Part shown: piece after piece, positions 2,865 through 29,067 of the stretch
Layout: each line of letters opens with the position of its first letter
How positions within the stretch are numbered: position 1 is the first letter of the stretch
Assembly: GCF_000445185.1 (NCBI RefSeq)
Contig: NZ_AVAF01000032.1
Location: forward strand, 1-64,000
Direction: 5' to 3'
From: Thermoanaerobacter sp. A7A
GTDB lineage: Bacteria > Bacillota > Thermoanaerobacteria > Thermoanaerobacterales > Thermoanaerobacteraceae
Length of the DNA stretch: 64,000 bases
The notes under the pieces: generated by a model
Seen by the model: the letters and a program-made list of their open reading frames with translations, nothing else
What the model was told of the DNA's origin: nothing
Databases searched by the model: none
Translations under genes and position numbers: made by a program

Positions 2865-2882
2865 AGTCAAATCCCCTAAAAA

Positions 2883-5294: not shown

Positions 5295-5376
5295 CCTAAG
5301 ATCCCCCTAAAACTACATTAATGTATGTTATATTATCTATTCTATAAATTTATTGAAAATCCTTTATATTTCCATA

Positions 5377-5410
5377 AAAAATAAAGACACTACCTTTCAT
5401 AGTGCCCTTA
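5377..5410 (-). terminator. Likely terminator after the Rpn pseudogene
   Basis: On the minus strand GCACTATGAAAGGTAGTGT folds into a six-pair hairpin and is followed by CTTTATTTTTT. It overlaps the last codons of the 5408-6269 frame. Confidence 0.5.
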
Positions 5411-6269
5411 TTTCAAAAACTTATCTAAATCTTCTATCTTATCTATATCAAATATATTGTCAACAATATCCATCAACGTTTCCCTGTTTGCACCATCTAT
5501 TTTCTTTACATATTCTTCAGGAACATTCCCAAATTTCTTCTCTAATAACTTAATAACAGTTACTCCTATTCCCTTCTCCATGCCTTTTTCTATTCCTTTT
5601 TCTATTCCTTTTTCTATTCCTTTTTCTATCCCTTTTTTTATCCCTTTTTTAATACCCCTTTTCTCACGCTCTTTCATCTCTTGCAATATGGTCTTTTCAA
5701 GATTTGATATCATTATTTTCACCTCCTTGTTTTCATCTATTATCCTCTCTATATTTTCTCGCTCTTCTTCCGGCAATCTAGCTAGTAATATCTTTTTAAA
5801 CCATGCTTTAAATAATAATATTTCATCTTTATCCAAGTTGTTTAATATCTCTGATAATTCCTTAAGCCTTTTCATTATTTCTTCAAATTCTACTTTTTGT
5901 TCTAATAAAAATACAGAAGCTATTAAGTTTTCTAACTTTAATAATTCTTCTTTTGTATACCTATTTACATCTACTAGTATATATTTGAAATCTACTGCAT
6001 ATTCTCCAAAGGTTTCATAGGAATTTAGTGTTTCTTTGTAGCTTGTTTTTGCTGTCCATTTATGGTCTCCGTTGTATAATACTATCGGCACTATAACTGG
6101 TAATTTAAAATCTTTCCTTCTTGATTCTTTTCTTGGTGTATCTTTTAGTATGCTTCTCCATTACAAAACTTCTTAATAACTCTATAAACACTCGCTTACT
6201 GGATAACAAAAATTTATACCCTTTGTCATGCTGATTGTGAATAGCTTCCTTTACATTTTTATCATCCAT
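5408..6269 (-). pseudogene. Rpn-family recombination-promoting nuclease, internal deletion
   Basis: The N-terminal piece (ATG at 6269, AAGGAG nine bases upstream) reads HDKGYKFLLSSKRVFIELLR and matches the start of the intact paralogue at 37919-38956. At about 6160 the frame jumps from LLRSFV straight to WRSILKD...PIVLYNG in another frame. About 80 codons present in the paralogue, including most of the PD-(D/E)XK catalytic core, are missing. The rest (227 codons) is open and ends with a GIKKGIEKGIEKG tandem repeat and a helical tail. This is a dead gene by deletion. The Rpn/transposase_31 family assignment is from memory. Confidence 0.8.
5575..5660 (-). repeat. 12-bp tandem repeat coding G-I-E-K
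   Basis: About seven head-to-tail copies of a 12-base unit (minus strand GGAATAGAAAAA) encode (GIEK)n, with two 5' copies diverged to GIKK. Such in-frame repeats can expand or contract without breaking the frame. A similar 12-base repeat coding GKIE occurs in the paralogue at about 38078-38136. Confidence 0.8.
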
Positions 6270-6376
6270 GACATTTTGCTCCTTCTTAATATCATTATAT
6301 CTCATAAATGATAAGTTTTGAATAACAATTTATAATTGCTGTTACTAAGTCTCTAAATAATTTTCATTCTGTCTTC

Positions 6377-6447
6377 ATTTTACCATTTTATTTCTCAAAA
6401 ACCAACATAAATATTAAAAATATTTCGCCATATATCGACAAAAATGA
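6377..6447 (-). promoter_or_regulatory. Dispersed promoter cassette, copy 2
   Basis: Minus-strand TTGGTT (6400-6405), 17-base spacer and TAAAAT (6377-6382), with TTTTTGTCGATAT and GGCGAAATAT in the upstream arm. It is nearly identical to copies at 1266 and 9344. TTTGTCGA resembles half of the Spo0A box. It lies about 100 bases upstream of the Rpn pseudogene. Confidence 0.6.
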
Positions 6448-6525
6448 AAATGTGTAACACAGCAAAGCCCTGCGGATAATATTAATAGCTTAGCTCCACT
6501 TAACATTTTTATTATTTTTCAAGCT

Positions 6526-7441
6526 TTAAGAATAATAAAAAAACCATACATTTTTGTCTTTTTTATCCTTCCTTATTTCGCTTATTGTATAATTTTGGTT
6601 TTTATACTCCTCTGCAACTTTTTGGGCATCTTCCTTTGTTCCCAAAATCCTTACATACATTTTACCACTTGAAGTTTTCCCTGTTGTAACTTGGTATCCT
6701 TTTTCATCCTCTTCTTTCCTTTTACTATGCTTTCTTTTCCATTCTTCATGATCTAACGGTTTAGCATTTTTTACAGCTTCAATAATCAAATTAATATCCT
6801 CTTCAGATATATTTTCTCCTTTTACTTTTCTAATTTCTCCAACAGCCTCCATTCCTCCAATAACAACAGGCATGCTGCAATCTTTAGCTTTTACCCATTT
6901 AGCCCTTTTAAATATTACAATTGGATGTATATGATCTTTAATTCTTTCATGTAAATCAGGCAAATTTTCTCCTAACTATTTTTTAAACAATTTAACATGC
7001 CTTTCATTTTGTTTGGTAGGACTTTGAACTTCAACCCATTTATTTCCTTGTTTCATGCGCCATTTATCTTTTGTTCCTAAAAAAGCACCATCCCATGATT
7101 TTGTCTCTAACACAAAAATTCCGTTTGTATTTAATACAAAGTGATCAATTTGTATAAACTTGTCAGGCTCTACTTCTAAAACAAGGTCATTTATAACAAT
7201 TACCTGGAAGCCATAAATGCAATGCCCATCCTGCTGAATCTTCACCACTACTTCCCTGTTCTTTTTCAGAAATACGCCTCCATGTATAAGCAACATCCGC
7301 AATAGGTTCTAAAAGCCATCCAAGAAAGCCCTCACTAATTTTGTCTAGATGTTTTTGCTTTTCTCTTTCTTCTTTTTCTTTGATTTTTTGATAAAAAAGC
7401 TTTTTTATCTCTCTATCCTGCTCTATAAAACGCGCAAACAT
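6526..7441 (-). pseudogene. NERD-domain protein, broken by a frameshift and an amber codon
   Basis: A 305-codon gene in three pieces. It starts at the ATG at 7441 with GGAGAGAGGAGCAAA upstream. The first frame carries a charged helix and then GWALHLWLPGN. At about 7195 the reading must shift frame to continue INDLVLEVEPDKF, QIDHFVLNTNGIFVLETKSW and GNKWVEVQSPTKQN, which is the NERD (nuclease-related) core with the QIDH and ETK residues. An in-frame TAG at 6976-6978 then interrupts it before LGENLPDLHERIKDH and the remaining 140 codons. Both lesions are single changes in otherwise conserved sequence, so recent inactivation or sequencing error are possible. NERD is a PD-(D/E)XK-like domain of unknown role. 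Confidence 0.8.
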
Positions 7442-9453: not shown

Positions 9454-10366
9454 TTATTTACTCTCTACAGCTCTTTTTGGCTCTGTATTTTTCCAATATT
9501 CCATAAAAAACACTATAAAAATACTGACCATAAGACCTAATATAAATGCTATAATTATATTCAATGATTTTTTAGGTGCTACTGGTTTATCAGGTATTAA
9601 AGCTTTGCTAGTTATAAGAATGCTTTGATTGCCAAGTTCCGATTCTTTAACCAGTTCCAGCATATTATATTTTTCTAACATTATATCTCTTGTAGTTTTC
9701 AGTAAATCCAACTGTTTTTGTTTCTGCTCAATTAAAAGCTTGTCTTGAGAATTTGTTTGAATTTTATTAAGTTCCGCTGTTACCTCTTTTATTTTATCAT
9801 TTTGGAGAGTTATAAGTTTATTCAAAGTTTCGATTAATTTATCTGTCTGCCTGTTATTTCTCTCAATTATATAAGTCCGAAAATTTTGCGCTATTGTATC
9901 TGCAATTTTTGCCGCAAGCTTTGGATCATTTTCCTTTACAGTAACTGTTATAAGATTTGTATTGTTAATCACAGAAACCGAAATTTGCTTTTTTAAATTT
10001 TCTATTGTGTACTTTTGAGGATCTAATCCTAATTGTTTTACAGTATTCATAAGAACAATAGGATTAGTAACCTCTTCTTTAAATGCTTCTACTGACATAT
10101 AAGTCTTTTTCTATACTGTCACTTTGTACTGTCGGAAGATTTGAATCTTTTCCCGGAAGAATAACCGTAGTATTTGAACCAAAAAAGCCTGTTGCAGGTG
10201 TTACATCTGTAACTGATAAAGTTGTAGTTGCTTCATAGGTGGGTTTTATTACAAAAAAACTAAGCACTGCTGCTACTAAAGTTGCAGTAAGAGTTACAAT
10301 AATGATTGTTTTTTTATATTTTAAAATTACCTCAATAAGCTCTCTCAATGAAATTTCTTCTTCCAT
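9454..10366 (-). pseudogene. Wzz/YveK-like chain-length co-polymerase, frameshifted
   Basis: The first frame (95 codons, ATG at 10366) has SLRELIEVILKYKK, a membrane helix (IIIVTLTATLVAAVLSFFVI) and the KPTYEATTTLSV strand typical of Wzz proteins. The second frame (ATG at 10098) continues MSVEAFKEEVTNPIVLMNTV, a coiled coil, and a C-terminal helix preceded by the proline-rich PDKPVAPKKS motif. The two frames overlap by 20 bases and differ by one base, whereas relatives are one protein, so I call a frameshift. Wzz proteins set polysaccharide chain length in the membrane, which fits the cluster upstream. A genuine split pair or a sequencing error is possible. Confidence 0.75.
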
Positions 10367-10925: not shown

Positions 10926-11876
10926 CTACTCTCCCCTACTGATTGCAACCTCATCTTCTGCATACTTCACCCTATAATACTCAATTGTCTCTCTCAATCC
11001 CTCTTCTAAGCTATACTCCGGTTTCCATCCAAGCACATCCAAAGCTTTTTTATTATCAAGATAACTATGTACTATATCGCCTTTACGAGGTTCTGCATAA
11101 ATAGGCTTCAAAGAAGTTCCCATGATTTTATTCATCAAATCAATAAGCTCATTTATACTTGTAGGCTTATTCGTGCTTATATTTACAATCTCGTTATCTC
11201 CCTTTTCCAATGCCAGAAGATTGGCTTTTGCCACATCTTTTACATAAACAAAATCACGCGTTTGATTTCCATCTCCAAAAATAATAGGCCTCTCATCTTT
11301 AAGTATTTTATCTACAAAAATAGATATTACTCCGCCTTCTCCTTTTGGGTCCTGCCTTATTCCATATACATTTGCATAACGCAAAATTGTATACTTTAAA
11401 CCATACAATTGCCTATATACCTCAAAGTAATGCTCTGGTGTATGCTTTGATATCCCATAGTAGGAGATAGGATCTACCTTATGTTTTTCATCAATAGCAA
11501 GATACTCAGGATCTCCATATACCGCTGCTGATGAAGCATATATAATTTTTTTCACTTTATAACTTTTAGAACATTCCAACAAATTCACTGTACCCAAGAT
11601 ATTTACTTTTGCATCAAATACAGGCTCTTTAATTGACTTTTGTATATCTATTTGAGCTGCCTGATGTATCACATAATCAGGTTTCTCTTTTTCGAATACT
11701 TCATGTAAATCATCATCTGTAATATCTTTATTATAAAAAACTGCCTTTTTGTTTATAAACTCATGTTTTCCTGTTGAAAGATTATCAACTATTACAACTT
11801 CATAGCCATTTTCAATCAACAAATCCGCTATGTTTGAACCTATAAAACCTGCTCCACCTGTAATTAAAACTTTCAT
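10926..11876 (-). CDS. NAD-dependent sugar epimerase (extended SDR), copy 1
   Basis: A 316-residue extended short-chain dehydrogenase/reductase of the UDP-glucose/GlcNAc 4-epimerase type. The Rossmann motif is ITGGAGFIGSNIADLL at residues 4-19. The catalytic ASSAAVYG (Ser/Thr) is at about 118 and Y-x3-K in YYGISK is at about 143. RDFVYVKDVAKANLLALE and the sugar-binding half follow. It is cytosolic and should supply a nucleotide sugar to the adjacent sugar transferase (12-base gap). A second copy at 22803-23723 is nearly the same, differing mainly at the C-terminus. Exact substrate cannot be told. Confidence 0.85.
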   Translation of the reverse strand: MKVLITGGAGFIGSNIADLLIENGYEVVIVDNLSTGKHEFINKKAVFYNKDITDDDLHEVFEKEKPDYVIHQAAQIDIQKSIKEPVFDAKVNILGTVNLLECSKSYKVKKIIYASSAAVYGDPEYLAIDEKHKVDPISYYGISKHTPEHYFEVYRQLYGLKYTILRYANVYGIRQDPKGEGGVISIFVDKILKDERPIIFGDGNQTRDFVYVKDVAKANLLALEKGDNEIVNISTNKPTSINELIDLMNKIMGTSLKPIYAEPRKGDIVHSYLDNKKALDVLGWKPEYSLEEGLRETIEYYRVKYAEDEVAISRGE

Positions 11877-11887
11877 CTATGTATCCC

Positions 11888-13303
11888 TTACCTTTCTATT
11901 TTAGTGATACCTAATTCGCTGTAAACATTGTAATCTAGACTTTCTAACAATTCTTCCAATTCCACGTCTTCCTTTATTCCAAAAGAAGCTTCTTTAGTTA
12001 ATACAGTTTTTAAAGTAAGCAATATTATTTTAAGATCCAACCAAAATGAATAATTCTTAATATATATCAAGTCTAATCTCAACTTGTCATCCGCATCTGT
12101 TGAATATTTTCCAAATACTTGTGCAAGTCCTGTTATACCCGCTTTTACATTATGCCTATACTTATAGGATGGATATTGTTTTTCAAATTGTTCAACAAAA
12201 TATGGTCTCTCAGGTCTAGGGCCTACAAAGCTCATATCTCCCTTTAAAACATTGAACAATTGAGGCAACTCATCAAGTCTGGTCGCTCTCAATATTTTAC
12301 CTACTTTTGTAATCCTTGGATCATTATCTGTGGCTAAAACAGGCCCCGTCATCTTTTCTGCATCATTGTACATTGTTCTAAACTTATATACTTTAAATTT
12401 CTTACCATTTTCCGTTATTCTTGTCTGCTTGTAAATTACTGGTCCAGGGGATGTTAATTTAATTATCAAAGCAATTATTGCCATTAAAGGAAGAGTAATT
12501 ACTACTCCAATAATTGAAAAAACAACGTCAAATACTCTTTTAATAAATTTATCTTCTTCTGTTAATGAGAGAGAATTTATACTCACAACCGGCACATCAT
12601 CAAATTGCACAAATTGCGATTTAACCATAAGAATATCTCTGAAATTTGGTACAACAAAAAGATGTTTTTTAAACTTCATTGAGTCATAAAAAAGTCGTGT
12701 TTTTATATCCTCTTTAACATCATTACATATATAAACAGCATCTATTTCATCAAAATGTTTAATGATTTCATCGTACTTTTCAGGACTTATTATATATTTT
12801 ATTTCAAACCATCCGCGTGAACTCGTAATTAATTTCTTGGCTATTTTATCCGCCGCATCCTTTTCCCCAACGATCATTATATTCTTTTCACCATGCGCAT
12901 GTTTTATCGCATTTTGTACTATATATCTCCATAATGACAACAATCCTATTTGGATTATTAAAGCTATGCCAAATATACTTCGGGGAAAAGCAAATTGTCT
13001 TATAAAAAAGGTCGACACAACTGTTAAAATCTGTAATAGTGACAAAGAAATTATCAACGAAAAAACTATATCATTATAATTTTTACGCAAAGTATTATAT
13101 AAACCATAAATATGAAATAAAATAATAGATAGCAAGGTAATCACAGGTATTAATTCATAATAAGGTTGAAAATTTTTTACTGGCAGATTATTACCAAATC
13201 TCACAATATATGCGAGCACGAAACCTACATGGACTAATATCAAATCCATCAGAAAAATAATTAACTTACCTAATTTAGGAAATTTGTGCAAAAACGTGTC
13301 CAT
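11888..13303 (-). CDS. Polyprenyl glycosylphosphotransferase (initiating sugar transferase), copy 1
   Basis: A 471-residue WbaP/CpsE-type enzyme that transfers a sugar phosphate to undecaprenyl phosphate to start repeat-unit assembly. About four membrane helices fill the first 130 residues, followed by a Rossmann-like linker domain (NIMIVGEKDAADKIAKKL) and a fifth helix (FDVVFSIIGVVITLPLMAII). The catalytic bacterial sugar transferase domain follows, with TSPGPVIYKQTR, KVYKFRTMY, LRATRLDELPQLFNVLKGDM and SFVGPRPERP. It is intact, unlike copy 2 at 23737-25151. AGGTGG lies before the ATG at 13303. Confidence 0.9.
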   Translation of the reverse strand: MDTFLHKFPKLGKLIIFLMDLILVHVGFVLAYIVRFGNNLPVKNFQPYYELIPVITLLSIILFHIYGLYNTLRKNYNDIVFSLIISLSLLQILTVVSTFFIRQFAFPRSIFGIALIIQIGLLSLWRYIVQNAIKHAHGEKNIMIVGEKDAADKIAKKLITSSRGWFEIKYIISPEKYDEIIKHFDEIDAVYICNDVKEDIKTRLFYDSMKFKKHLFVVPNFRDILMVKSQFVQFDDVPVVSINSLSLTEEDKFIKRVFDVVFSIIGVVITLPLMAIIALIIKLTSPGPVIYKQTRITENGKKFKVYKFRTMYNDAEKMTGPVLATDNDPRITKVGKILRATRLDELPQLFNVLKGDMSFVGPRPERPYFVEQFEKQYPSYKYRHNVKAGITGLAQVFGKYSTDADDKLRLDLIYIKNYSFWLDLKIILLTLKTVLTKEASFGIKEDVELEELLESLDYNVYSELGITKIER

Positions 13304-13843: not shown

Positions 13844-16153
13844 TTATTCTTCCTCATGTGAGAAGTCCTCTATTTTAAAGTAAGTGATTTCTCCTTTTTC
13901 TTTCTCTTCCCTAAGGGCTTCTTCAACCTCTCCCTTGGCCGTGAAGTAAATTATCTGCCATCCCTCCTCATAGGCCATTTCTTTCACCATTTGAAGTTGT
14001 TTCCTTAATCTGTAGGGATCAGCTTTTATAAAAGGGTCGTCCAAGATAAAGAAACCTCCAGAAGAAGCCAAAAGCTTTTTGCCTAGGGCCAGCCTTATAG
14101 CGAAGTACAATTGGTCATAGGCTCCGCCTGACAATTTTTCGGTAGAAAGTCGGGCTCCATCCTCTCGTACCACCTCTACCGTACCTCTTTCTTGGTGGTA
14201 AACTACTCCTCTGTAGCGATGTTCAGTGGCTACAGCAAAATATTTAGACACCAAGCTATCTTCACCAAATAAGGTAGCTACCTTTTCCTTTTCTTCCTTA
14301 TCTATTTTTTCCCAAATTCTAATGGCAGTTAAAACCCTGTTTTTCCGGGTTTCATTTTCTTGTATAAATTTTTGCAACTCTTCCTTGATTTTTTCTAAAT
14401 CGGCCAGGGTATGACAGTACAAATATTCTTCTGAACGCAAAATTTCTCCAGCCCTTTTCTCTATCTCCGTCATCATTCTCTTTATATTTTCCCTCTGCTT
14501 TTCTAGGGTTTCTAATTTTTCTTCTAACTGTTGCCGTTTTCTCCTTAAATGGTCTACCTCTTTTTCGTCATATTTTCTTCCCAGAGCCTTATCCTTGTAA
14601 GACGATAGCTCTTCTATGGCTTGTTCCCAGTAGGAAATAGCTTCTCCTCCTAAAAGGCTTCTTAACTCCCGTTCCGCTCCCTTTATTTTTGTTTCTAAAT
14701 CCTTCTTCTCTTCTATTTTTTTCTTATAACCCTCTAGGGTCTCCTCTCCTGAATTTTCTTTTATCCTAGCAATGACATTTTGTACACTTCTAATCTTTTC
14801 CTCTAGATTTTCTATTCTCCCCCTTAATTGCTCAATTTTATTCTCTAATCTCTCTTTTTGTCTTTCCATATCTTCTTTATCCTTGTTTTTTTGAAGATAT
14901 GTCTCTTCAAATCTTTGGATATGAGCCAAAGATTTTTCTAGGGTCTCTCCCTCCAACTCCAGCTCTGCCAGAGCCAGTCGGATCTTTTCAAATAAACTTT
15001 CTAGATGCCCCTTTTTGCGCCAAAATTGAAAGCTATAAGCCCAAGAAACTACGGCAGATAACAAAAATACAAATGTCAAAAAGATCATCCAGGAGGAATA
15101 TTTAAAAAATAACCCCAAGAGAGAAAAGGCTAAAAGAATTGAAGAAGCGTAAGCCAGAGGCTGCCAAAAGCTGTTTTTGGTTTCCCACGCTCGAAACTCT
15201 GCCCTCTGTTTTTCGTAATTTATCAGCTCCGGCTTAATATTCTCCTCTAGCTTTTTCTTTCTCCCCTCCAAAATCTCAAATTCCTCTTTTAGCACTGCGT
15301 ATCTGTTCTCATGTTTTTGAAGCTCTTCTTCTGTTTTTTGTAGTTCCTCTAAAGCCCCCTCCTTTTCCCTATGATATTGCTCTATATCCCTTTCGTGGTC
15401 TCTCCATTTTTGCCATTCAGCTTCGCTGAACCCCTCTAGCGCTTTAAGCCTTTCTGAGTACTCATATATCTCCTTTAGAGCATTTTCAGCTTTTTCGTAT
15501 ATTTCCCTTTTTCGGGCCTCTTCCAATTCCTCTAACTCATTTTTTAGCTTTTCTATCTCTTCGGCTGTCTTTACATATTCCAGCTCAGAATCTTCAAGCC
15601 CTTCTTCGTTTATTCTTTTATGTAATTCATCTATCTCTTCTATGAGCCTTTGTCCTTTCTCTATCCTATCTTTCAATTTTTCCTCTCCTACATTGCGAAA
15701 AATACCAGTGGGAGTTATCTTACCTATTTCCCTCAATTTCTCTTTTATTTTATTGATTTCTTCTGAACGAAGGCCCATCAGCCTGTCAGTCACCTCAGTA
15801 TAGAAAGCCCCCTCTTTATCAAGGGAAAGGTCGCTATTTCTTATTATGAAAATATTGCGGCAATCTGTGGGACTCAATCCTGTCACTTGGATCAGAGTAC
15901 CCTTGTCGGGGAGCTTGACCTCCATTCCTTGCTCTGTCTCCAAAACTACATACCCCTCTGGATTTTCCTCTACTCTATCTATATTTTCAAAATCTTTCAC
16001 GTTTTTTCCCAATAAAAGTTTTATAAGTGCCTCTATGGTCAAGGTTTTTCCGCTCTCATTTTTCCCTACAAACAGAGTAAAATTCCCCAGCACAAATTTA
16101 GTTTTGTAACCTAGAGGGCCATAGCGAGTAATTAAAAATTCCTTTATTCTCAT
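13844..16153 (-). CDS. YhaN-like SMC/Rad50-type ATPase with membrane hairpin
   Basis: A 769-residue ABC-type ATPase. Walker A GKNESGKT is at 30-37, long coiled coils flank the centre, the signature LSGGAYDQLYFAIRLALG is at about 670 and Walker B FFILDDPF at about 700. Two hydrophobic segments at about 330-375 (LLAFSLLGLFF and IFLTFVFLLSAVVSW) sit where SbcC has its zinc hook, a layout I associate with Bacillus YhaN. It should act with the Mre11-like nuclease encoded immediately upstream (ATGA overlap) in ATP-driven DNA end processing, here probably at the membrane. Base composition is visibly more GC-rich than the flanking polysaccharide genes. Confidence 0.8.
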   Translation of the reverse strand: MRIKEFLITRYGPLGYKTKFVLGNFTLFVGKNESGKTLTIEALIKLLLGKNVKDFENIDRVEENPEGYVVLETEQGMEVKLPDKGTLIQVTGLSPTDCRNIFIIRNSDLSLDKEGAFYTEVTDRLMGLRSEEINKIKEKLREIGKITPTGIFRNVGEEKLKDRIEKGQRLIEEIDELHKRINEEGLEDSELEYVKTAEEIEKLKNELEELEEARKREIYEKAENALKEIYEYSERLKALEGFSEAEWQKWRDHERDIEQYHREKEGALEELQKTEEELQKHENRYAVLKEEFEILEGRKKKLEENIKPELINYEKQRAEFRAWETKNSFWQPLAYASSILLAFSLLGLFFKYSSWMIFLTFVFLLSAVVSWAYSFQFWRKKGHLESLFEKIRLALAELELEGETLEKSLAHIQRFEETYLQKNKDKEDMERQKERLENKIEQLRGRIENLEEKIRSVQNVIARIKENSGEETLEGYKKKIEEKKDLETKIKGAERELRSLLGGEAISYWEQAIEELSSYKDKALGRKYDEKEVDHLRRKRQQLEEKLETLEKQRENIKRMMTEIEKRAGEILRSEEYLYCHTLADLEKIKEELQKFIQENETRKNRVLTAIRIWEKIDKEEKEKVATLFGEDSLVSKYFAVATEHRYRGVVYHQERGTVEVVREDGARLSTEKLSGGAYDQLYFAIRLALGKKLLASSGGFFILDDPFIKADPYRLRKQLQMVKEMAYEEGWQIIYFTAKGEVEEALREEKEKGEITYFKIEDFSHEEE

Positions 16154-17211
16154 ATTCTCACCTCCATTATGGCTTGGAGGACTAAGTCAGACAAATGCTT
16201 TTTTTCCTCTTCTTCAACGCCCTCCTTCTCTAGGGTTTCTAAAAACTTTTTAAAAAGGTCGTCTTCCCATATCCTGCTTATATCTCTAAACTGGTAGTTT
16301 TCCCCTGCAATTTTTCCTGAAGCTAATTTTCTCACCTTTTCCACTAATTCTTCCTCCCCCATCCCCAACTTTTCCCCATGAAGGTACCCAGATACGGTTA
16401 AAAGTACTTGGGCTTTGGGGTGGAGATTTTTGAGGTAGTTCTCTAATATGTCTAAAGGATGACGAGGATCAAAAGGGTCTAGTTTTAAAGTAACTTCCTC
16501 AAAGTGTAGAGTATCGAGAAGGTATTCCTGGGGAGGCTCTCCTATTTCAAAAATATTTGCTTTGCGCTGACCTGTTTCCTTTTTAGTAACAGAAACTGGA
16601 GATCCAGGGTAAACAAAATATTTGCCTTTTTCTACTTCCCATACGTTATAGCGAGAATGAAAATGTCCCCCCAGTATATACTGTAGGTTTAAACCTTCAA
16701 AATAAGAAAGTTTCACCGGCATATACCTGCCTTCTCCTTCTTCACCAAAATCCTCCCGGGCAAAGTAGCTATCCACCAATTCTCCATGATAAAGTAAAAT
16801 ATTGGTCTTGTCCGGAATCAGCCTGTCTTCCAAGGTTCGAATTTTTTGCACCATTTCTCTACCTTCTATATTTTCAAAAGGCATACCCCACACTCTGACT
16901 GTTTCTAATTCAAAAGGTTCATGGAGATGGGTCAAAATCGTCACATCTTCGCCCCAATACATACCCTTAGTGTAAGCACTTTTATCGTGATTTCCAGGGA
17001 TTATAAGAATTTTAAAATCATTGTCAGAAAAAATACTTCTCAAATGGGGCCTTAATTTTTCTACCTCTACCTCGGTATCAAAAAGGTCACCACTTATCAC
17101 CAAGAGATTGATTTTCTCTTTTCTCCCCACTTCTATTAATTCTTCTAAAGCTTCCCATCTTTCGTCTTCATATCCCTTTAAATGAAGGTCTGCCGTATGG
17201 AGAATTCTCAT
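16150..17211 (-). CDS. YhaO/SbcD-like Mre11-type nuclease
   Basis: A 353-residue calcineurin-fold metallophosphoesterase. Metal ligands are visible in order: DLHLKG (D7, H9), ISGDLFD (about 41-47), IPGNHDKS (about 70-77), LLYHGE (about 140) and GGHFHSRYN (about 180). Such proteins are Mn-dependent DNA exo/endonucleases that work with a Rad50-like ATPase; the partner gene overlaps its stop by four bases. It is shorter than Mre11 and close to the YhaO/SbcD class. The ATG at 17211 follows a GGGGTGAAATT ribosome site. Confidence 0.85.
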   Translation of the reverse strand: MRILHTADLHLKGYEDERWEALEELIEVGRKEKINLLVISGDLFDTEVEVEKLRPHLRSIFSDNDFKILIIPGNHDKSAYTKGMYWGEDVTILTHLHEPFELETVRVWGMPFENIEGREMVQKIRTLEDRLIPDKTNILLYHGELVDSYFAREDFGEEGEGRYMPVKLSYFEGLNLQYILGGHFHSRYNVWEVEKGKYFVYPGSPVSVTKKETGQRKANIFEIGEPPQEYLLDTLHFEEVTLKLDPFDPRHPLDILENYLKNLHPKAQVLLTVSGYLHGEKLGMGEEELVEKVRKLASGKIAGENYQFRDISRIWEDDLFKKFLETLEKEGVEEEEKKHLSDLVLQAIMEVRI

Positions 17212-17223
17212 AATTTCACCCCA

Positions 17224-17429
17224 TTACTCCTTTTCATAGCAAATTTCCCTTATCCCGCATTCTGAACATCTTTTCTTTCGGCAGTAAATTTTATCTAAAA
17301 CATAAGAAGCTGTCTGAACCCATCCGGCCAGCTTTCCAAAATGTTTTTTAGCCGAAACGCCAAACATTCTTCTCTTACTGGGCACTCTGTACAGAAAAAA
17401 GTTTTACAGAACAAAGAAATTCTTTTCAA
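17224..17429 (-). pseudogene. Small Cys-rich frame(s): two Cys4 motifs in different frames
   Basis: Frame one (17295-17429, TTG start at best) contains C-KTFF-C-TE-C-PVREE-C. Frame two (17224-17367, ATG at 17367, 47 codons) ends with C-RKKR-C-SE-C-GIREI-C. Both have exactly C-x4-C-x2-C-x5-C. They overlap out of frame, so this is either one gene with tandem metal-binding motifs and a frameshift, or two overlapping small genes. The spacing resembles, but is not, the C-x6-C-x2-C-x5-C iron-sulphur motif of endonuclease III, and Cas4-like nucleases have related clusters. It lies between the helicase and the Mre11-like gene in the same direction. Confidence 0.45.
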
Positions 17430-17437
17430 ACTGTCAT

Positions 17438-19576
17438 TTATTCCAAACTTATTATCCTAATACGGAATTTATCTAAAAAATTCAATACCCCTTCGATATC
17501 CACATTATGAGCCCCATGCATTTTTATTTGCAATTTTGGGGGAAGGAAATGACTATATTTGGATACAAAAAATTCCTGTTCTTTAGTGTAGGGCAATAAA
17601 TTTTCTAAAGACCACTTTCTTCTCTTAATATCCTGTAAAATATCGATAAATTCATCACTGGCGGAAATCTCCATGCGTCCGATTCCATCTGTTTTTGCCA
17701 CGTCAACTCCATAATAGCGCAACATCCACATCAAAGTTCTAAAAATATTTGTGCCAGTAAAGGTTTCAAATAGTAAGCCCTCTTTCGTTTTCCAGACAAT
17801 CCTTTCGTCTGGCTTAACATTGAAATATCTATAAGGTGTCCTTAATTCTTCTAAAACAGTCTGGGCCCTCTCATCAATAAAATCAAACTTACAGTCTGAA
17901 CACAATATTTCGTGCATGCGCTCAGGAATACGGGGGTGCAATGGTCCTGGTCCACCTGAATATCTAGGAGGCTTTCCATCCACCGCTTTTTTTACATATA
18001 CTTTATTTTTATGAAAATCTATCTCTTCTATTTTCCACAGCTGCCCAGCAAGAATGATATTGTCTCCGTCGTTTAAAAGAGAAGTTTTTTCGATTTCTCC
18101 TATATTTTTATTTCCATAAAAAACTTCATAAACCTCTGGAGTCATGAAGACCGAGTAAAAATCTTTCTGCCTTAGCAGTCGTTCTCCCTCTAGGCCTACA
18201 ATTAACTCCTGGGTATCAGCCAATATTTCTAAATATTCCTTCTCAATCATGTGTTCAACTAATATACGGATATCTGATTTCGGCAATTCATGAAAGGCAG
18301 CGTTTTCACTTATCAATGAAACAAGTTCCTCAAGAGGGATACCGTTCAGCTGGTGACATATAGAAATAATTTGATGAAATAAAATATCATATGGGTACGG
18401 ATAGCCTTTGCTGGGTTCAATCCAACCTTGCAACAAGAGATCCATCACTGCAATAGATTGCAGCAATCCATATTTGTCTGTGGTATACATCTGCAAATAT
18501 TGACCTTCCCCTTGCTTTCTTCCTGACCTGCCCAGTCTCTGCTTTAAAGAGGAAACCGTAAATGTACTATCCACCTGTATTACCAGATCAATTTCCCCTA
18601 TATCGATCCCTAGTTCTAAGGAGCTTGTAGCTATAACACTTTTAATCTCAGTGGACTCTGCCATCAGCTTCTCCACAAATTCCCGTTCTGCCTTAGCTAT
18701 TGAAGAATGATGGGCATAATACCTTTCTCCCAGGCCCTCCCTTTGAGCTAAACGATTTAAAATTACTGTAGCCTCTTCTACTGCCGCCCGACTATTAAAA
18801 AAAATCAAAGAGGTATAGTTCCGGGTCAGTTCTAGAATATCTTCGTATAATTCCAGAGGATAATTTCCTGTTTTAGTTTTTTCAAAATGCATTAAACTGT
18901 AATAGATGTCCCTCTCAAATCCCTTTACTTCAATGATTTCCACATTATCTGGATTGTTGCAATTAACCCACTTTTTAATCAGAGAAAAATTATCGATTGT
19001 TGCTGACAACCCGATGATCCGAGGGGGCTTTTTGCTGTATCGCTCAATACGAGATAAGAGAGATCGGAGCTGAACTCCTCTTTCTGTATTAATAAAAGCG
19101 TGGAGCTCGTCAATTACAATAAATTCGAGGTCCTGAAATAATTGCTTCAAAGAGCGTGTTCTGTTTATGAACAAGCTTTCAATAGATTCGGGAGTAATCT
19201 GTAATATGCCAGCAGGATTATCAATTAATTTTTTCTTACTGTGTTGGCTCACATCACCATGCCACCTATGCACAGGAATATTCATCTCTTCACATAATTT
19301 TTGAAGTCGCTCAAATTGATTATTAATCAAAGCCTTTAGAGGAGAAACGTAAAGAACCTTCAAAACGCTAGGAGCTGTCTTCTCGATTTTGCTGATGATG
19401 GGCAAAAATGCAGCCTCAGTTTTTCCAGAAGCTGTACCTGACGACAACACCACATCTTTTTCTGTATCGATAATCACAGGGATTGCTTTTTCTTGGATAG
19501 GGGTAAAATGTTTCCATCCCATGTCCCATATTTTCTTTTGCACTTTATCTGATAGCTTATAAAATATTTGGCTCAT
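17438..19576 (-). CDS. DEAD/DEAH-box SF2 helicase, Shango helicase candidate
   Basis: A 712-residue superfamily II helicase. Motif Q/I is FTPIQEKAIPV and SSGTASGKTEAAFLPI (about 20-60), motif II is VIDELHAF (about 156; DELH), motif III is GLSATIDN (about 190), and the second RecA lobe has SLELGIDIGEIDLVIQVDS and QRLGRSGRKQGEG (motif VI). A long C-terminal domain resembles Lhr/BrxHI-type helicases. Together with the TerB protein and BrxD-like ATPase upstream (18-base gap to the latter) it matches the three-gene composition I know for the Shango anti-phage system. Nucleic acid unwinding or remodelling is the expected activity. Confidence 0.8.
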   Translation of the reverse strand: MSQIFYKLSDKVQKKIWDMGWKHFTPIQEKAIPVIIDTEKDVVLSSGTASGKTEAAFLPIISKIEKTAPSVLKVLYVSPLKALINNQFERLQKLCEEMNIPVHRWHGDVSQHSKKKLIDNPAGILQITPESIESLFINRTRSLKQLFQDLEFIVIDELHAFINTERGVQLRSLLSRIERYSKKPPRIIGLSATIDNFSLIKKWVNCNNPDNVEIIEVKGFERDIYYSLMHFEKTKTGNYPLELYEDILELTRNYTSLIFFNSRAAVEEATVILNRLAQREGLGERYYAHHSSIAKAEREFVEKLMAESTEIKSVIATSSLELGIDIGEIDLVIQVDSTFTVSSLKQRLGRSGRKQGEGQYLQMYTTDKYGLLQSIAVMDLLLQGWIEPSKGYPYPYDILFHQIISICHQLNGIPLEELVSLISENAAFHELPKSDIRILVEHMIEKEYLEILADTQELIVGLEGERLLRQKDFYSVFMTPEVYEVFYGNKNIGEIEKTSLLNDGDNIILAGQLWKIEEIDFHKNKVYVKKAVDGKPPRYSGGPGPLHPRIPERMHEILCSDCKFDFIDERAQTVLEELRTPYRYFNVKPDERIVWKTKEGLLFETFTGTNIFRTLMWMLRYYGVDVAKTDGIGRMEISASDEFIDILQDIKRRKWSLENLLPYTKEQEFFVSKYSHFLPPKLQIKMHGAHNVDIEGVLNFLDKFRIRIISLE

Positions 19577-19594
19577 ATTTATTTGCCTCCCAGG

Positions 19595-20926
19595 TTATGA
19601 AAGCTGGGTTCTTTTAAAACGTTTATGGATGTCGATGACTTTTTCCGAGGAGTTGTTTTCTCTAGTCTCTTCTCCTATATATAATTCTTCAAAATTCAGA
19701 GTAGGGTGTTCCATCTTAATATTCAAAAAGCTGATAAACTGCCTGACCACATCTCCTAAAATAATGTGCTTTTCAGCCCCTGGTCGCTTGTATGTCCACA
19801 GCAAATACTTCCGAATTTCTTCGTCCGTCACATTTATTTCATAGCCATAATGGGCTGCGTGGATATCCCGTATATTCATCAATAGAATCAAGGTTTCTTC
19901 AGGTGTAAGGGGAGTTAATTTCATTACTGCCTGCCTTAAATCTTGATATTCTTCCTTTTCCACCGCTGGCTTCAAACGTCGCTTCAATGCCTGGTAGCTG
20001 TAAAGCCCACGGCGCTCATCCTCTAAAAACTCAGGGGTACCGCTAAACGTTATATACAAACCCTCAACTGAACCTTGCAAAATGTCATTGTAGATCATCA
20101 GGATATAGTCATAATTTTTTTCTCTGGCTTCCCTATGAGTAATCTTATATAGATTGACTGCTTCATCTAAATTGATAATCAAGCCTGAATACCCTGCTTG
20201 CCTTACAAATTTACACAGCACTTTTAAGTAACTATAATAATTGCTATCATTAATGATCTCTCTAATTTCTAGGTCCCGCATTGCATCGGTTTTGGTCAAA
20301 TATTCTCCTCTGAGCCACCTCAAAGCTTGACGCTGTTTTTCCTTATCTTGCTTTACAAAACTTTTATAGTAAATACTTAGAACTTTTGCAAAATCGTAAC
20401 CACCCGTTAACTCATCTAAATGAGAAACAGCTTTAACAATTTCTTTCTCTACTGCTTGAACAAATACACTCTCCTCCAAAACAGCTTTATCTTCATAATC
20501 TAGGTCTTCCATTACTTTCTTTTGCAAACCCATTATCCACTGATCTAAAATAATGGGCAGGGCGTTCCCTTGGGGTGCGGATTTGGTTGATAGATTTTTT
20601 ATCAATTCATTGTACAAGGCCAGAGCTTGATTATCGCTTCCATACAATCTTCTATGGGGAGTAAAATCCGCATTGGTAACTACAAATCCTTCTTCTAGAC
20701 CCACTTGCCTAACAAAATTTTGCATAAAACTTTTTCCAGTTCCATAGGCGCCGATAAAAAACTTGATCATAGAGTTTCCATTTTCTTTTATGTCTCTTAA
20801 TTCTTCTCTTATTTGTTTCATTTCCGCTTCACGGCCCACCATTATATACTGGAGACCTTTTTTAGGAACCACCCCGCCTGCCAATGCACTTAAAATATCT
20901 GCTGAATCTCTCCTTTTAATTTTCAT
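19595..20926 (-). CDS. BrxD-like P-loop ATPase (DUF2791), Shango ATPase candidate
   Basis: A 443-residue protein with the BrxC/BrxD (DUF2791) pattern: ADILSALAGGVVPKKGLQYI and VGREAEM at the N-terminus, Walker A FFIGAYGTGKSFMQN (about 55-69), ADFTPHRRL, and Walker B GLIINLDEAVNLYK (about 245). BrxD-type ATPases accompany Lhr-like helicases in type 2 BREX, and an ATPase of this kind accompanies a TerB protein and helicase in Shango. The start codon overlaps the end of the TerB gene by 11 bases, so the products are probably made in fixed ratio. Confidence 0.8.
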   Translation of the reverse strand: MKIKRRDSADILSALAGGVVPKKGLQYIMVGREAEMKQIREELRDIKENGNSMIKFFIGAYGTGKSFMQNFVRQVGLEEGFVVTNADFTPHRRLYGSDNQALALYNELIKNLSTKSAPQGNALPIILDQWIMGLQKKVMEDLDYEDKAVLEESVFVQAVEKEIVKAVSHLDELTGGYDFAKVLSIYYKSFVKQDKEKQRQALRWLRGEYLTKTDAMRDLEIREIINDSNYYSYLKVLCKFVRQAGYSGLIINLDEAVNLYKITHREAREKNYDYILMIYNDILQGSVEGLYITFSGTPEFLEDERRGLYSYQALKRRLKPAVEKEEYQDLRQAVMKLTPLTPEETLILLMNIRDIHAAHYGYEINVTDEEIRKYLLWTYKRPGAEKHIILGDVVRQFISFLNIKMEHPTLNFEELYIGEETRENNSSEKVIDIHKRFKRTQLS

Positions 20927-22760
20927 GCCGATTTCTCCTCTCCACTTCTTCCCATACAGTTACCAGCTCTTCGTTTATCACATACTCTTCTCCTATGAGC
21001 TCAATAAAGACATCTTCTAAATATTCCTCCGCTTTAGCATTTATCTGCTCGACAAAAATCGTTACAGGAACACCTTGATCTCTCAACTGTTCCTCTGCTT
21101 CATTTATGCTTTTCTTTCTATTGGAAAATGTGCTGATAAATTTAGATTCCTCTTCTGTTAAGGAAGAAATAAATCCTTCCACATCAACTTCTTCATCAGA
21201 CAAGCAGATTCGAGACCTATTTTCGGGAATGTCTATTTCAGGCAAGTCCAGTTCAGGTTCAATTTCCTCGCCGTCTATCCCTGTGGTTTGGACTGGTCTT
21301 GGAGGTATAATATGTTTCGACTCTTCCTTTTCTTTCGATGCTACTTGAGAAAAACGACTCTTTACTCCTTTAACTGGAGAAAAACGGCTTTTGAGGCCTA
21401 CATCCTTTGTCAGGTCCAAGCTCTTTATTTCCTCTAATAAAGCTTCTTTAAACCCAGGAGGCAACAATTCTTCGTTTACTTGAAGCTGTCTGGTAACTCC
21501 AGCGAGCAATCGAGCAACATTCTCTGAAAGCCGGAATAAAGCTGTTACTTCATTGTAAAAATAATCTGTAGGCACATATTGTAAGTACTTTATAACCCGG
21601 CTTGGAACATTTCGACCTATTACTGCGCTATTAAAAAAGTGATATGTCTCTATTTTTTCTTCTGGTTTAAACCAGGCTTTCTCCAGATCTAATCCCTCTT
21701 CTATATTTATCCTTTGAAATAATTTTAAAGCCTGTTCAAAAACAGCATATACTCTTTGGGCATTGGTTTTAAAAAAGGTGGTTTCTGAATATCCATATAG
21801 AACCTTTCGCCATTCTTCCATAGGTATTTTGCTAATATCATCTTGATATTCTTTGAAAATCTGATAAAAATTGAGCCCAGAATACGGTTCTGCCCCTAAT
21901 CCCCATTTATAAGCCAATTCAATTTCATTCAGTTCTACCAACATATCCCTTATCCAGGGCACAATATATCTGTCCAGATCAGGAAGTCTATCCTTGTACG
22001 CCTCCCGTAAGCGGACCATCATACTAACGTTGAACGCAGCATTTTGATTGAATGTATAGTTCAAGAGTTCATAAACAAATAAGATTACGTAGCTCAAATC
22101 TGTGTCCAAATAATTGCCGTTTAGTGCCTGATACCTCCAGTAGAAATACCACCTCTTCTGCCTTTCGTCCAAATCTCTAAAAGTAGTCCAATACACCTTC
22201 AATGGCACAAAATCCGCCTTCCTGAGTTTCATATCAGCGTATTTAATCGAATCCTTCATAAACTCCGTTTCACGAGTGGAAAAAGTAATCTCTATAGTAG
22301 GTGAACTCGACTTTTTAGCTTTGAGAGAGTTTTTTAGTTCCTCAATTTCTTTTCTTATGTAGAGAGGAGTTTCAAGGTGAGCATATTCTGGCAGTATGAT
22401 ATCTTCTTCCTTGTAAAATTTCTCTTTTCCTTTTTGAAGTAAAACTTTTTCTGGAGAAGGATCAAGTTTTTTGACTTGAGTAATTTCCTCTGTAGGAGAA
22501 ATCCGAGTTGGTGTTTCGGGGAGCTTCTTTGAAACCTCTTCTTCCCTTTCTGAATACTCCTTCTGCCATTTCTTAATAAAAAACATATCTATCCAACCCA
22601 ATACCATAGTCAAAGGGAGCAATTTGCCTGCGGAAAATATGACGATCAAGAGATATATCGCAGCCTTTAGATATTTTTGATAATAAAAAAGATGCGCTCC
22701 AAAACCCCCCAAGAAAAAGGCCAATAAATAGCCTACTGTCGGAGACTTGCCTTTTTTCAT
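20916..22760 (-). CDS. TM2-TerB_N-TerB_C protein, Shango TerB candidate
   Basis: A 614-residue three-part protein. Residues 5-60 form a TM2-like helical hairpin (VGYLLAFFLGGFGAHLFYYQ and then AAIYLLIVIFSAG). Residues about 170-430 match TerB_N (RQKRWYFYWRYQALNGNYLD, TDLSYVILFVYELLNYTF). After a low-complexity linker, about 515-605 form a TerB_C-like acidic helical domain. TerB modules are metal-binding, membrane-linked domains of stress and phage-defence operons. First gene of the island operon; its start is only 43 bases from the upstream epimerase stop. The TM2 anchor predicts that the whole complex is recruited to the membrane. Confidence 0.8.
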   Translation of the reverse strand: MKKGKSPTVGYLLAFFLGGFGAHLFYYQKYLKAAIYLLIVIFSAGKLLPLTMVLGWIDMFFIKKWQKEYSEREEEVSKKLPETPTRISPTEEITQVKKLDPSPEKVLLQKGKEKFYKEEDIILPEYAHLETPLYIRKEIEELKNSLKAKKSSSPTIEITFSTRETEFMKDSIKYADMKLRKADFVPLKVYWTTFRDLDERQKRWYFYWRYQALNGNYLDTDLSYVILFVYELLNYTFNQNAAFNVSMMVRLREAYKDRLPDLDRYIVPWIRDMLVELNEIELAYKWGLGAEPYSGLNFYQIFKEYQDDISKIPMEEWRKVLYGYSETTFFKTNAQRVYAVFEQALKLFQRINIEEGLDLEKAWFKPEEKIETYHFFNSAVIGRNVPSRVIKYLQYVPTDYFYNEVTALFRLSENVARLLAGVTRQLQVNEELLPPGFKEALLEEIKSLDLTKDVGLKSRFSPVKGVKSRFSQVASKEKEESKHIIPPRPVQTTGIDGEEIEPELDLPEIDIPENRSRICLSDEEVDVEGFISSLTEEESKFISTFSNRKKSINEAEEQLRDQGVPVTIFVEQINAKAEEYLEDVFIELIGEEYVINEELVTVWEEVERRNRHEN

Positions 22761-22802: not shown

Positions 22803-23723
22803 TTATTTGACGTTCCCTTTATAATACTCAATTGTCTCCCTTAACCCCTCTTCCAAACTATACTCCGGTTTCCATCCAAGCACATCCAAAGCTTTTTTAT
22901 TATCAAGATAACTATGTACTATATCTCCTTTTCGAGGCTCTGTATAAATAGGCTTTAAAGAGGCATTCATGATTTTATTCATTATCTCAACAAGCTCATT
23001 TATACTTGTAGGTTTATTCGTGCTTATATTTACAACTTCATTATCTCCCTTTTCCAATGCCAAAAGATTAGCTTTCGCCACATCTTTTACATAAACAAAA
23101 TCACGCGTTTGCTTTCCATCTCCAAAAATAATAGGTCTTTCCCCTTTAAGCATTTTATCTATAAAAATAGATATTACTCCACCTTCTCCTTTTGGGTCCT
23201 GTCTTATCCCATATACATTTGCATAGCGCAAAATCGTATATTTCAATCCATACAATTGGCTGTATACCTCAAAATAATGCTCTGGTGTGTGTTTTGATAT
23301 TCCATAGTAAGATATGGGATTTACTTTATGTTTCTCATCAATGGGAAGATATTCAGGATTTCCATACACTGCTGCTGATGAAGCGTATATAACTTTTTTA
23401 ACACCACTTTTTCTGCAACATTCCAGTAAATATACTGTTCCAAGTATATTTACCTTCGCATCAAATACAGGATTATCAATTGATTTCTGCACCTCTATCT
23501 GAGCTGCCTGATGTATCACATAATCAGGCTTTTCTTTTTTAAATATTTCACACAAGTTCTCATCTGTAATGTCTTTTTTATAAAAAATGGCCTTTTTATT
23601 TATAAATTCTTCTTTTCCTGTTGAAAGATTATCAACTATTATGACTTCATATCCATTTTCAATCAGCAAATCTACTACATGTGAACCTATAAAGCCTGCA
23701 CCACCTGTGACTAAAACTTTCAT
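22803..23723 (-). CDS. NAD-dependent sugar epimerase (extended SDR), copy 2
   Basis: A 306-residue paralogue of the protein at 10926-11876, with VTGGAGFIGSHVVDLL at residues 5-20, the YYGISK catalytic Tyr/Lys motif and the same RDFVYVKDVAKANLLALE block. The DNA is also closely similar, so the duplication is recent. It differs at scattered positions and lacks the last ten residues of copy 1. It appears intact. The sugar transferase gene lies 13 bases upstream, as in copy 1. Confidence 0.85.
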   Translation of the reverse strand: MKVLVTGGAGFIGSHVVDLLIENGYEVIIVDNLSTGKEEFINKKAIFYKKDITDENLCEIFKKEKPDYVIHQAAQIEVQKSIDNPVFDAKVNILGTVYLLECCRKSGVKKVIYASSAAVYGNPEYLPIDEKHKVNPISYYGISKHTPEHYFEVYSQLYGLKYTILRYANVYGIRQDPKGEGGVISIFIDKMLKGERPIIFGDGKQTRDFVYVKDVAKANLLALEKGDNEVVNISTNKPTSINELVEIMNKIMNASLKPIYTEPRKGDIVHSYLDNKKALDVLGWKPEYSLEEGLRETIEYYKGNVK

Positions 23724-23736
23724 CGTATATATCTCC

Positions 23737-25151
23737 TCACTTATCTATTTTTGTAATTCCTAATTCACTGTAAACATTATAGTTTAAAGATTTCAACAGC
23801 TCTTCTAATTCCATCTCTCTTTTCACACCAGAAGATGCTTCTTTTATGAATATGGTCTTTAATGTCAATAATATTATCTTAATATCAAGCCATAAAGAGT
23901 AATTTGTGATATATATAAGGTCCAATCTCAATTTGTCGTCCACATCTGTCGTATACTTTCCAAATACCTGTGCAAGACCTGTTATCCCTGCCTTTACATT
24001 ATGCCTGTACTTGTATGAAGGATACTGCTTTTCAAATTGTTCTACAAAATATGGTCTTTCAGGTCTGGGACCTACAAAGCTCATATCGCCCTTCAAAACA
24101 TTAAATAATTGAGGCAGTTCATCAAGTCTAGTCGCCCTTAACACCTTGCCTACTTTTGTAATCCTTGGATCATCCTCTGTAGCTAAAACAGGTCCTGTCA
24201 TTTTTTCAGCATCTTTGACCATTGTCCTAAATTTATATACATTAAACTTCTTGCCTTTCTCTGTTACTCTTAACTGCTTATAAATCACTGGACCGGGTGA
24301 AGTCGCTTTAATCAACATAGCAATTATTACCATTAGAGGCAAAGTAACTACTATACCAATAAATGAAAAAACTATATCGAAAAGCCTTTTAATTAACTTA
24401 TCTTCACTAGTCAATGAAGGATAATTCACACTTATAACAGGAACATCATCAAATTGTACAAATTGCGATTTTACTAAAAGAATATCTCTTAGATTTGGGA
24501 CAATAAAAAGATGTTTCTTAAATTTCATTGAATCATAAAAAAGACGGGTCTTAAGATTCTCATCAACACCACTGCATATGTATATTGCATCTACTTCATT
24601 GATGTGATTAATAATCTCATCATATCTTTGAGGACTTATTATGTACTTTATATCAAACCAACCTCTAGAACTTGAAATTAATTTCTTCGCTAATTTTTCT
24701 GCTACTTCCTTTTCGCCTATAATCATTACTTTCTTCTCGCCATGCACATATTTTCTTACATTTTGTACTAAATATCTCCACAGGGACAACAATACAAGCT
24801 GAATTCCAAAAGCTATAAAAAATATGCTCCGTGGAAATGCAAACTGTCTTATAAAAAATGTTGAAGCTACTGTTACAACCTGCAGCAGCAGTAAGGAAAG
24901 AATTAAAGAAAACACTATATCTCCATAGCTTTTCCGTGAGTATTATACAAACCATAAATATGAAATAAAATAATAGCAGACAATGTGATCACAGGAATTA
25001 ACTCATAATATGGCTCAAGGTTTGCAATTGGCGGATTTGTTCCAAATTTGATAGTATACGCAAGTATAAATCCTGTATGAATTAATAATAAATCTACAAT
25101 GAAAACAATAAATTTGCTTAATTTAAAGAATTTATGAAAATGGGTATGCAT
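23737..25151 (-). pseudogene. Polyprenyl glycosylphosphotransferase copy 2, one-base frameshift
   Basis: The N-terminal frame (ATG at 25151 behind AGGTGG) gives the first membrane helices up to FHIYGLYNTHGKAMEI and a TAG at about 24919. The rest (IVFSLILSLLLLQ to the C-terminus with SFVGPRPERP) is open in the frame one base away. Aligning with copy 1 (YNTLRKNYNDIVFSL) shows that one missing base near 24930 explains the break. The catalytic domain is complete but separated from its start, so the gene is probably inactive unless the base is a sequencing error. Confidence 0.85.
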
Positions 25152-25193
25152 TAGAGACACCACCTATTAAAATAATTTGTCACTTGGGTAGAA

Positions 25194-27363: not shown

Positions 27364-29067
27364 CTAATAGAATCCCAATTCTTCTTTTACTATCTCAGCT
27401 ATACGCTTTACAAATTGAGGTGCATAATCTGGCATAAAACTATGAATTCGCCGAGCTATGTATCGAGCAATAAGCCCTTTTGCTTGGTTTTTCGATACTG
27501 GTTTGATTATATTATGCGCTTCCTCTTCTATTTTTTCATAAGTTGGAGTTCGTTCCGTTCTAGTGTTTTCATAGTCTTGTTTTACAGCTGTTTCAAATTC
27601 TTTACCCAGAATTACGATTGGTGTTGCAGGCTCATTTTCGCTTGTTACAACATCCCACGCTTTTCCATGTAAAATTTGTTCCAATTGCAAACCAAAACAA
27701 CTTGCTAAGTTTTTATTAGACTTTCTTTTTTGATTATCACTACCTTTTGCATCCACACCGTCATCGTCGTTGTCAAAAACCACTAACATCGGAATTTTAA
27801 ACTTACCAAACAAACGCCAATATTTGGGAATCTGATTTTTGCCCTGCACTGCAATAACTGACACACCTTTTTGGTCGCAATTCAAGCCCACCGCAGCTAA
27901 GTACTCTGGTAAAGCTAATTCTTCAGTTTCACCTTCCACAAGGATGAGAAATCTAGCAAAAAAAGCTTCGTTTAGCCGGTAATTTGAAGTACTCTTATAA
28001 TATTCAGTAATATTTTCGATAGTAGCTTTTCCTTCTGGTACACCTGTTCTGTAACAATGTTCTACAAGCTCAGCTTTTGAAACCAAAGTTAAAGTTGTAT
28101 GCTGACAACCTTTATTTTCTGGGTCATCAACTTTTCGCACTAGACCGATCGAATCAAAAAATTCCGTATCAACGAAATTATTCGAATGTGTAGAAATAAT
28201 AACCTGGAGTCCAGTGCTAACAATCTCACGTAAAATGCGAAATAAATTCCGTTGTGCCTGAGGGTGTAAATAAATTTCAGGTTCTTCAAGAGCTAAAATA
28301 CCTCTTATTTCTTCTCCATATTGTCTTAAATTAACAGCATAACTTCTAAGAAGAGCAAGAAGAATCAAATTTCGTGTACCTTCTCCTAATTCGTCTAAAT
28401 CAATATCTCTCCTATTTTGATTAGGATCAGATGCTAGAATATGCATAGTTTTGAAATAATTACTGGGAGTAAACGGCTTAAAGTCTATTGACATTTTTAG
28501 TGGAACATCTGCTTGTAGTTCTTCAAAAAATTTACCAAAATCTTTTTTGAATTCTGAAAAACCAGGAACTTGGTCAAATAGATCAACAATTTCATTAAAT
28601 CTTTCTTCAAGTTTATCTGAAAGATTGTAGGCCCTTTTATGAAATGTTTTGCGAATTTTCCCTAATAAACTCCAATCGTAAAAAGATATATGGCGATCAA
28701 ATGCCCGATCAGCTCCTAGATAAGTAGAAGGAAAATCTTCTTTAATGTTTTGATCTCGAATAAGATTCCCTAAAACATCTCTATACTCAGGCCATCTTGA
28801 AGAAGAAGAAAATATAGCAGAAGAACCATTATCAAAAATAAGTTCTATTCTTATTTCCTTACTTTTGTCTCTCAAATAAAAATCATAATCCTGTAATCTC
28901 TCAGAACTAACCCAATCTTCTCCACAAATTAAATTAATAGCCCGTATAATATTTGACTTTCCTGAATTATTGGGCCCTACAAGTACAAGTAAGTTACTTT
29001 CAGGAAACTCAAATTCTAAATGTTTGATTGAGCGGAAGTTTTTAATGACTACACGCTTTAATTTCAT
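27364..29067 (-). CDS. OLD-family ATPase with TOPRIM nuclease domain
   Basis: A 567-residue protein with an ABC-type ATPase at the N-terminus (KRVVIKNFRSIKHLEFEF, Walker A GPNNSGKS at 31-38, LALEEPEIYLHPQAQRNLF at about 255 with the Walker B glutamate) and a C-terminal TOPRIM nuclease (LILVEGETEELALPEYL at about 372, VVFDNDDDG at about 430). OLD proteins are DNA nucleases involved in phage exclusion. GajA of Gabija has the same layout, but no UvrD-like GajB gene is beside it, so it is best called a solitary class 1 OLD. It interrupts the polysaccharide cluster and is probably a defence cargo gene. Confidence 0.85.
   Translation of the reverse strand: MKLKRVVIKNFRSIKHLEFEFPESNLLVLVGPNNSGKSNIIRAINLICGEDWVSSERLQDYDFYLRDKSKEIRIELIFDNGSSAIFSSSSRWPEYRDVLGNLIRDQNIKEDFPSTYLGADRAFDRHISFYDWSLLGKIRKTFHKRAYNLSDKLEERFNEIVDLFDQVPGFSEFKKDFGKFFEELQADVPLKMSIDFKPFTPSNYFKTMHILASDPNQNRRDIDLDELGEGTRNLILLALLRSYAVNLRQYGEEIRGILALEEPEIYLHPQAQRNLFRILREIVSTGLQVIISTHSNNFVDTEFFDSIGLVRKVDDPENKGCQHTTLTLVSKAELVEHCYRTGVPEGKATIENITEYYKSTSNYRLNEAFFARFLILVEGETEELALPEYLAAVGLNCDQKGVSVIAVQGKNQIPKYWRLFGKFKIPMLVVFDNDDDGVDAKGSDNQKRKSNKNLASCFGLQLEQILHGKAWDVVTSENEPATPIVILGKEFETAVKQDYENTRTERTPTYEKIEEEAHNIIKPVSKNQAKGLIARYIARRIHSFMPDYAPQFVKRIAEIVKEELGFY

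Follow-up and report, generated by a model that had tools for sequence, protein, structure and literature searches.

According to the available portion of the published description, Shango comprises three genes, for a TerB-like protein, an ATPase and a helicase, and restricts phages in Pseudomonas; no fourth, Cys-rich gene is described there (PMC10250203). In the window analysed here (a 64,000-nucleotide stretch of DNA from Thermoanaerobacter sp. A7A), SngA, SngB and SngC together make up a complete Shango set as recognised by PADLOC, located upstream of and adjoining a short gap that we refer to as the Cys slot. On the far side of the slot, adjoining it on the same strand, lies a nuclease-ATPase pair resembling SbcD/SbcC (YhaO/YhaN-like), which starts 12 bases past the end of a Cys-rich reading frame. 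The neighbouring genes are the following.

20916..22760, minus strand: SngA, a protein with TM2, TerB_N and TerB_C domains (PADLOC SngA 6.7e-41; Pfam)
19595..20926, minus strand: SngB, a BrxC/BrxD-like ATPase (PADLOC SngB 9.4e-155; PF10923)
17438..19576, minus strand: SngC, the Shango DEAD/DEAH helicase, BrxHI/Lhr-like (PADLOC SngC 2e-218; Pfam DEAD, Helicase_C and WH_Lhr)
16150..17211, minus strand: SbcD-like metallophosphoesterase (PF00149 8.7e-17; TIGR00619 9.1e-15, under its cut-off)
13844..16153, minus strand: SbcC/Rad50-like SMC ATPase (AAA_15; Rad50 family 2.4e-11, under its cut-off)

The gap between the stop of the SngC-type helicase gene at 17438 and the ATG of the SbcD-like gene at 17211 is 226 bases long on the minus strand and was translated in all frames. 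We consider it fairly probable that it holds a small, lineage-specific gene with tandem Cys4 motifs whose frame has been broken, and which is a conserved part of neither Shango nor SbcD/SbcC.

Two Cys4 motifs in overlapping frames

Five features of the Cys slot are used throughout.

17408-17364, minus strand: Cys4 motif 1, CKTFFCTECPVREEC, in frame A
17283-17239, minus strand: Cys4 motif 2, CRKKRCSECGIREIC, in frame B
17429-17295, minus strand: frame A ORF, LKRISLFCKTFFCTECPVREECLAFRLKNILESWPDGFRQLLMF, 44 aa, with a TTG start in a weak ribosome-binding context and a TAG stop
17403-17224, minus strand: frame B open frame, ending ...MFGVSAKKHFGKLAGWVQTASYVLDKIYCRKKRCSECGIREICYEKE, which holds motif 2 and ends in TAA, 12 bases short of the SbcD-like ATG
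17349-17343, minus strand: AAAAAAC run (A6C run) between the motifs, reading A_AAA_AAC in the frame A register, the likeliest site of the frame break

Both motifs have exactly the spacing C-x4-C-x2-C-x5-C and are separated by 125 bases, which confirms the initial annotation's observation that the same Cys4 spacing occurs in two overlapping frames. The interval 17224-17429 extends from the TTG start of frame A to the TAA stop of frame B, and passing from frame A to frame B corresponds to a shift of -1. The first codon is uncertain, as an ATG at 17437 reads just 3 codons and the TTG at 17429 has the weak ribosome-binding context listed above; within frame B, starting at an internal ATG (17367) would yield 47 aa. 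When the two frames are joined, the result starts near the SngC stop and ends immediately ahead of the SbcD-like gene, an operon-like fit. Cys accounts for 8 of the 68 codons in the slot, compared with a share of 0.4% in the genes around it, and at the non-Cys positions the two motifs share 3 identical residues of 11 (BLOSUM sum 9, P = 0.012).

That such a repetition would be unlikely by chance had been asserted from the letters alone, and simulation bears the assertion out. Across 60 simulated windows the exact C-x4-C-x2-C-x5-C motif appeared 0.05 times per window, and pairs of identical spacing, allowing any C-x(2-8)-C-x(2-8)-C-x(2-8)-C arrangement with members 40-250 bases apart, appeared 0.017 times per window. 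The narrower pattern C-x4-C-x2-C-x-[VIM]-R-E-x-C has 2 matches in the window and none in 100 shuffles, and in 39 relatives and 199 phylum genomes (two sets that partly overlap) these two sites alone match it in a coding frame, the sole additional match falling out of frame within a RecF-like gene. Because that pattern was derived from the two motifs themselves and was thus chosen afterwards, we prefer the pair statistic, roughly 2e-4 per window. The notion that the gap is non-coding and the two motifs a coincidence draws on the absence of conservation and on a weak coding signal, and we regard it as highly improbable given about 0.017 same-spacing pairs per window multiplied by the P value for residue likeness. 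The Cys slot is a real, non-random feature, though as a minor local curiosity and not a missing part of a defence system.

A probable frame break at the A6C run

Codon preference was scored separately before and after the A6C run, with Cys codons excluded. Before the run, frame A scores 0.6 and has no stops, while the other frames score 0.0 (2 stops) and -7.7 (1 stop; frame B). After the run, frame B scores 2.8 with no stops, and the other frames score -4.7 and -8.5 with 2 stops each. The absolute coding scores of the slot are low; the switch in preference still coincides with the A6C run. A single small gene bearing both Cys4 motifs in tandem and interrupted by one frameshift, as originally proposed, is consequently the best fit, with both codon preference and the absence of stops changing frame at the same seven bases.

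The gap would thus once have held a gene of about 70 codons encoding two similar C-x4-C-x2-C-x5-C modules some 40 residues apart, and the net -1 change would most likely stem from an indel of one base within the A6C run, either a true mutation or an error of sequencing or assembly. Frame breaks of this sort that lack relatives are mostly indels or sequencing errors (PMC3711429). Two other genes in the window have comparable breaks. One is a sugar-transferase gene (23737-25163), one base short relative to an intact paralogue (11888-13303); the other is Wzz-like (9454-10366) and is likewise divided by a small shift of frame. Both count in favour of reading the slot as a frame-broken gene.

Since A_AAA_AAC lies in register, programmed -1 ribosomal frameshifting was considered as well, by which the sequence would yield a 44-residue product with one module and a product of roughly 68 residues with two. 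The heptamer conforms to X_XXY_YYZ in the exact register of frame A and sits between the motifs, and a short hairpin begins about 5 bases past it. However, the hairpin is of a kind that random sequence readily supplies (-9.3 kcal/mol, z -0.24, with 78 of 200 shuffles equally good) and so does not qualify as a stimulatory structure, and it would be weaker still at the growth temperature of a thermophile. In E. coli, A_AAA_AAC is far less prone to shifting than A_AAA_AAG (PMC5009743). The site is conserved in no relative examined, the fragment found in the congener G006 stops short of it, and A-runs are also places where indels arise. On balance, programmed frameshifting is improbable here. An elaboration in which frameshifting between the Shango helicase and SbcD/SbcC-like nuclease genes yields an accessory protein with tandem Cys4 modules (Fe-S or zinc), acting as sensor or gate for the nuclease arm of a joint defence operon, strikes us as very improbable.

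A bacterial pair of genes overlapping by 73 bases on the same strand is unusual, and an overlap of this length would be needed if the slot held two independent small genes with one Cys4 module each, the first starting at the frame A TTG at 17429 and the second at the frame B ATG at 17367. That ATG is preceded by a purine-rich stretch, as would suit a separate start; frame B, though, is the worst-scoring frame ahead of the A6C run and has a stop upstream of the ATG. Two overlapping genes are accordingly no likelier an account than programmed frameshifting, and we retain the single gene with a broken frame.

Homologue and family searches

Searches with the joined peptide returned no intact homologue in 249 phylum genomes and phages, for which the query was correctly joined, and none in 398 phylum genomes, viral contigs and plasmids, for which the query wrongly repeated a few bases between the motifs. 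The weak matches from the 398-genome search are to unrelated proteins; one example lies in an 831-residue protein that has a C-x7-C-x2-C-x5-C run. No RNA family, tandem repeat or terminator was found in the slot. Folds predicted for each of the two frames alone, without an alignment, are of low confidence (pLDDT 62 and 70).

Known WhiB proteins come from Actinobacteria and from phages of these bacteria. WhiB was the top match of the Cys peptide in Pfam, PHROGs and PDB sequence searches, and the likeness to these WhiB/Wbl [4Fe-4S] regulators consists of a C-x2-C-P-V-R-x-x-C-L run around motif 1. Two legitimate ways of joining the frames score 20.0 and 18.5 bits against PF02467, versus a cut-off of 23.6, and the match at 20.0 bits covers just 18 residues; a score of 26.1 bits, above the cut-off, is void, as it came from a join in which 7 bases were counted twice. 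WhiB proteins have a distant first Cys ahead of a C-x2-C-x5-C run, whereas in the slot the first Cys is 4 residues away and a second Cys4 module follows, and the G[VI]WGG-type turn of WhiB is absent from the slot sequence. The Fe-S loop of endonuclease III (PF10576, C-x6-C-x2-C-x5-C) has its last two spacings, x2 and x5, in common with both motifs, but its first spacing is x6 where the slot has x4, and the score is 12.8 bits versus a cut-off of 20.5. The helix-hairpin-helix glycosylase domain of endonuclease III is also too large for the 68 residues of the slot. With both likenesses below cut-off, we limit the claim to a small tandem Cys4 protein. From the motif, each Cys4 module of the intact protein would probably have held a single zinc ion or Fe-S cluster, and the tight gene spacing suggests that the protein would have been a small accessory, its frame translated after that of SngC and before that of the SbcD-like protein.

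The same slot in other genomes

The Cys slot had been put forward as a sixth, unnoticed component of the island, to be checked by looking for an uninterrupted Cys-rich ORF at the same place in related operons. No such ORF follows the SngC-type helicase gene at any of 28 other loci, made up of 4 same-family relatives (helicase 71-73% identity), 16 phylum loci and 8 more, with the caveat that the more distant helicases among the 28 may not belong to Shango; one further locus, with an archaeal Lhr-like helicase (L011), was looked at and then set aside. Likewise, none of 16 other SbcD-like genes related to the present one has a Cys-rich ORF upstream, unlike the arrangement here. The proposal of a sixth component is left unsupported by these counts, which largely amount to the outcome that had been named as speaking against it. 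We reject the slot as a conserved Shango component, as it is absent after the 28 other helicase genes and present as a fragment in G006 alone, and it is not a conserved part of the SbcD/SbcC pair either.

The G006 fragment is informative about where the slot belongs. In this congener the DNA is alike from a sugar epimerase gene up to 17369, past SngC and within motif 1, and then diverges, as in the following line.

17369..17437, minus strand: 69 bases past the SngC stop shared with G006, where the third Cys codon TGC is AGC

Soon after the homology break G006 has a fragment of an epimerase gene, the rest of the slot being lost. In G005 the contig stops at the SngC stop. In G003, homology to the SbcD-like gene begins at its ATG, with different genes upstream. 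The first part of the slot is thus kept beside SngC in one congener, and homology on the other side starts only at the SbcD-like ATG, so the Cys slot belongs with the SngC side. As far as seen, it occurs in this genus only, in one genome and as one congener fragment. The island lies between two sugar epimerase genes that resemble each other (10926-11876 and 22803-23723), and recombination between epimerase copies may have produced the epimerase fragment after the break in G006.

G003, a further congener, has at positions 2782-7190 of locus L057 a broken SbcD/SbcC-like pair with internal loss. The genes ahead of this pair, one for an AAA ATPase and one a 437-residue ORF, are about 85% alike to 1572-5442 of the window. 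This arrangement suggests that the SbcD/SbcC-like pair moves between defence-like partners.

In such a rearranged region, recombination could have left in the slot what remains of some longer or unrelated gene, with a transposase or a different Cys-motif protein as possible sources. The halt of G006 homology inside motif 1, with an epimerase fragment after it, and the position of the broken SbcD/SbcC copy in G003 are both consistent with such an origin. Against it, the open stretch matches the length of the gap almost exactly, and a longer homologue was not found in the 398 and 249 phylum genomes or in phages. We judge a remnant unlikely, and continue to favour a small gene with a broken frame.

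If the living strain carries the gene unbroken, its product would be an orphan protein, small and Cys-rich, encoded within a defence operon, and its size and frame break would make it easy to overlook in annotation. As found, the slot mainly illustrates how a lineage-specific gene in decay can occupy a short intergenic space within a Shango locus.

Shango and the SbcD/SbcC-like pair

Of wider bearing than the Cys slot itself is that Shango here stands next to an SbcD/SbcC-like pair. A complete Shango set followed by an SbcD/SbcC-like pair on the same strand (13844-22760) is a combination absent from the other loci examined, and the literature searched contained no paper that treats Shango and SbcCD together. 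Elsewhere, different nuclease or ATPase-like genes come after SngC-type helicase genes. At L059:3-1394 (G087), the helicase gene is followed by a weakly TrlF-like gene (NF045780, 42.5 bits, below cut-off) and by RecF; at L071:1-1485 (G129), an AAA_15 ATPase gene lies 3' of it; and at L074:251-1489 (G462), the gene in the 3' position is CoiA-like (PF25164, below cut-off). In the window itself, a further defence-type gene is found near the island at 27364-29067, encoding an OLD-family protein with an AAA_15 ATPase and an OLD-like TOPRIM domain.
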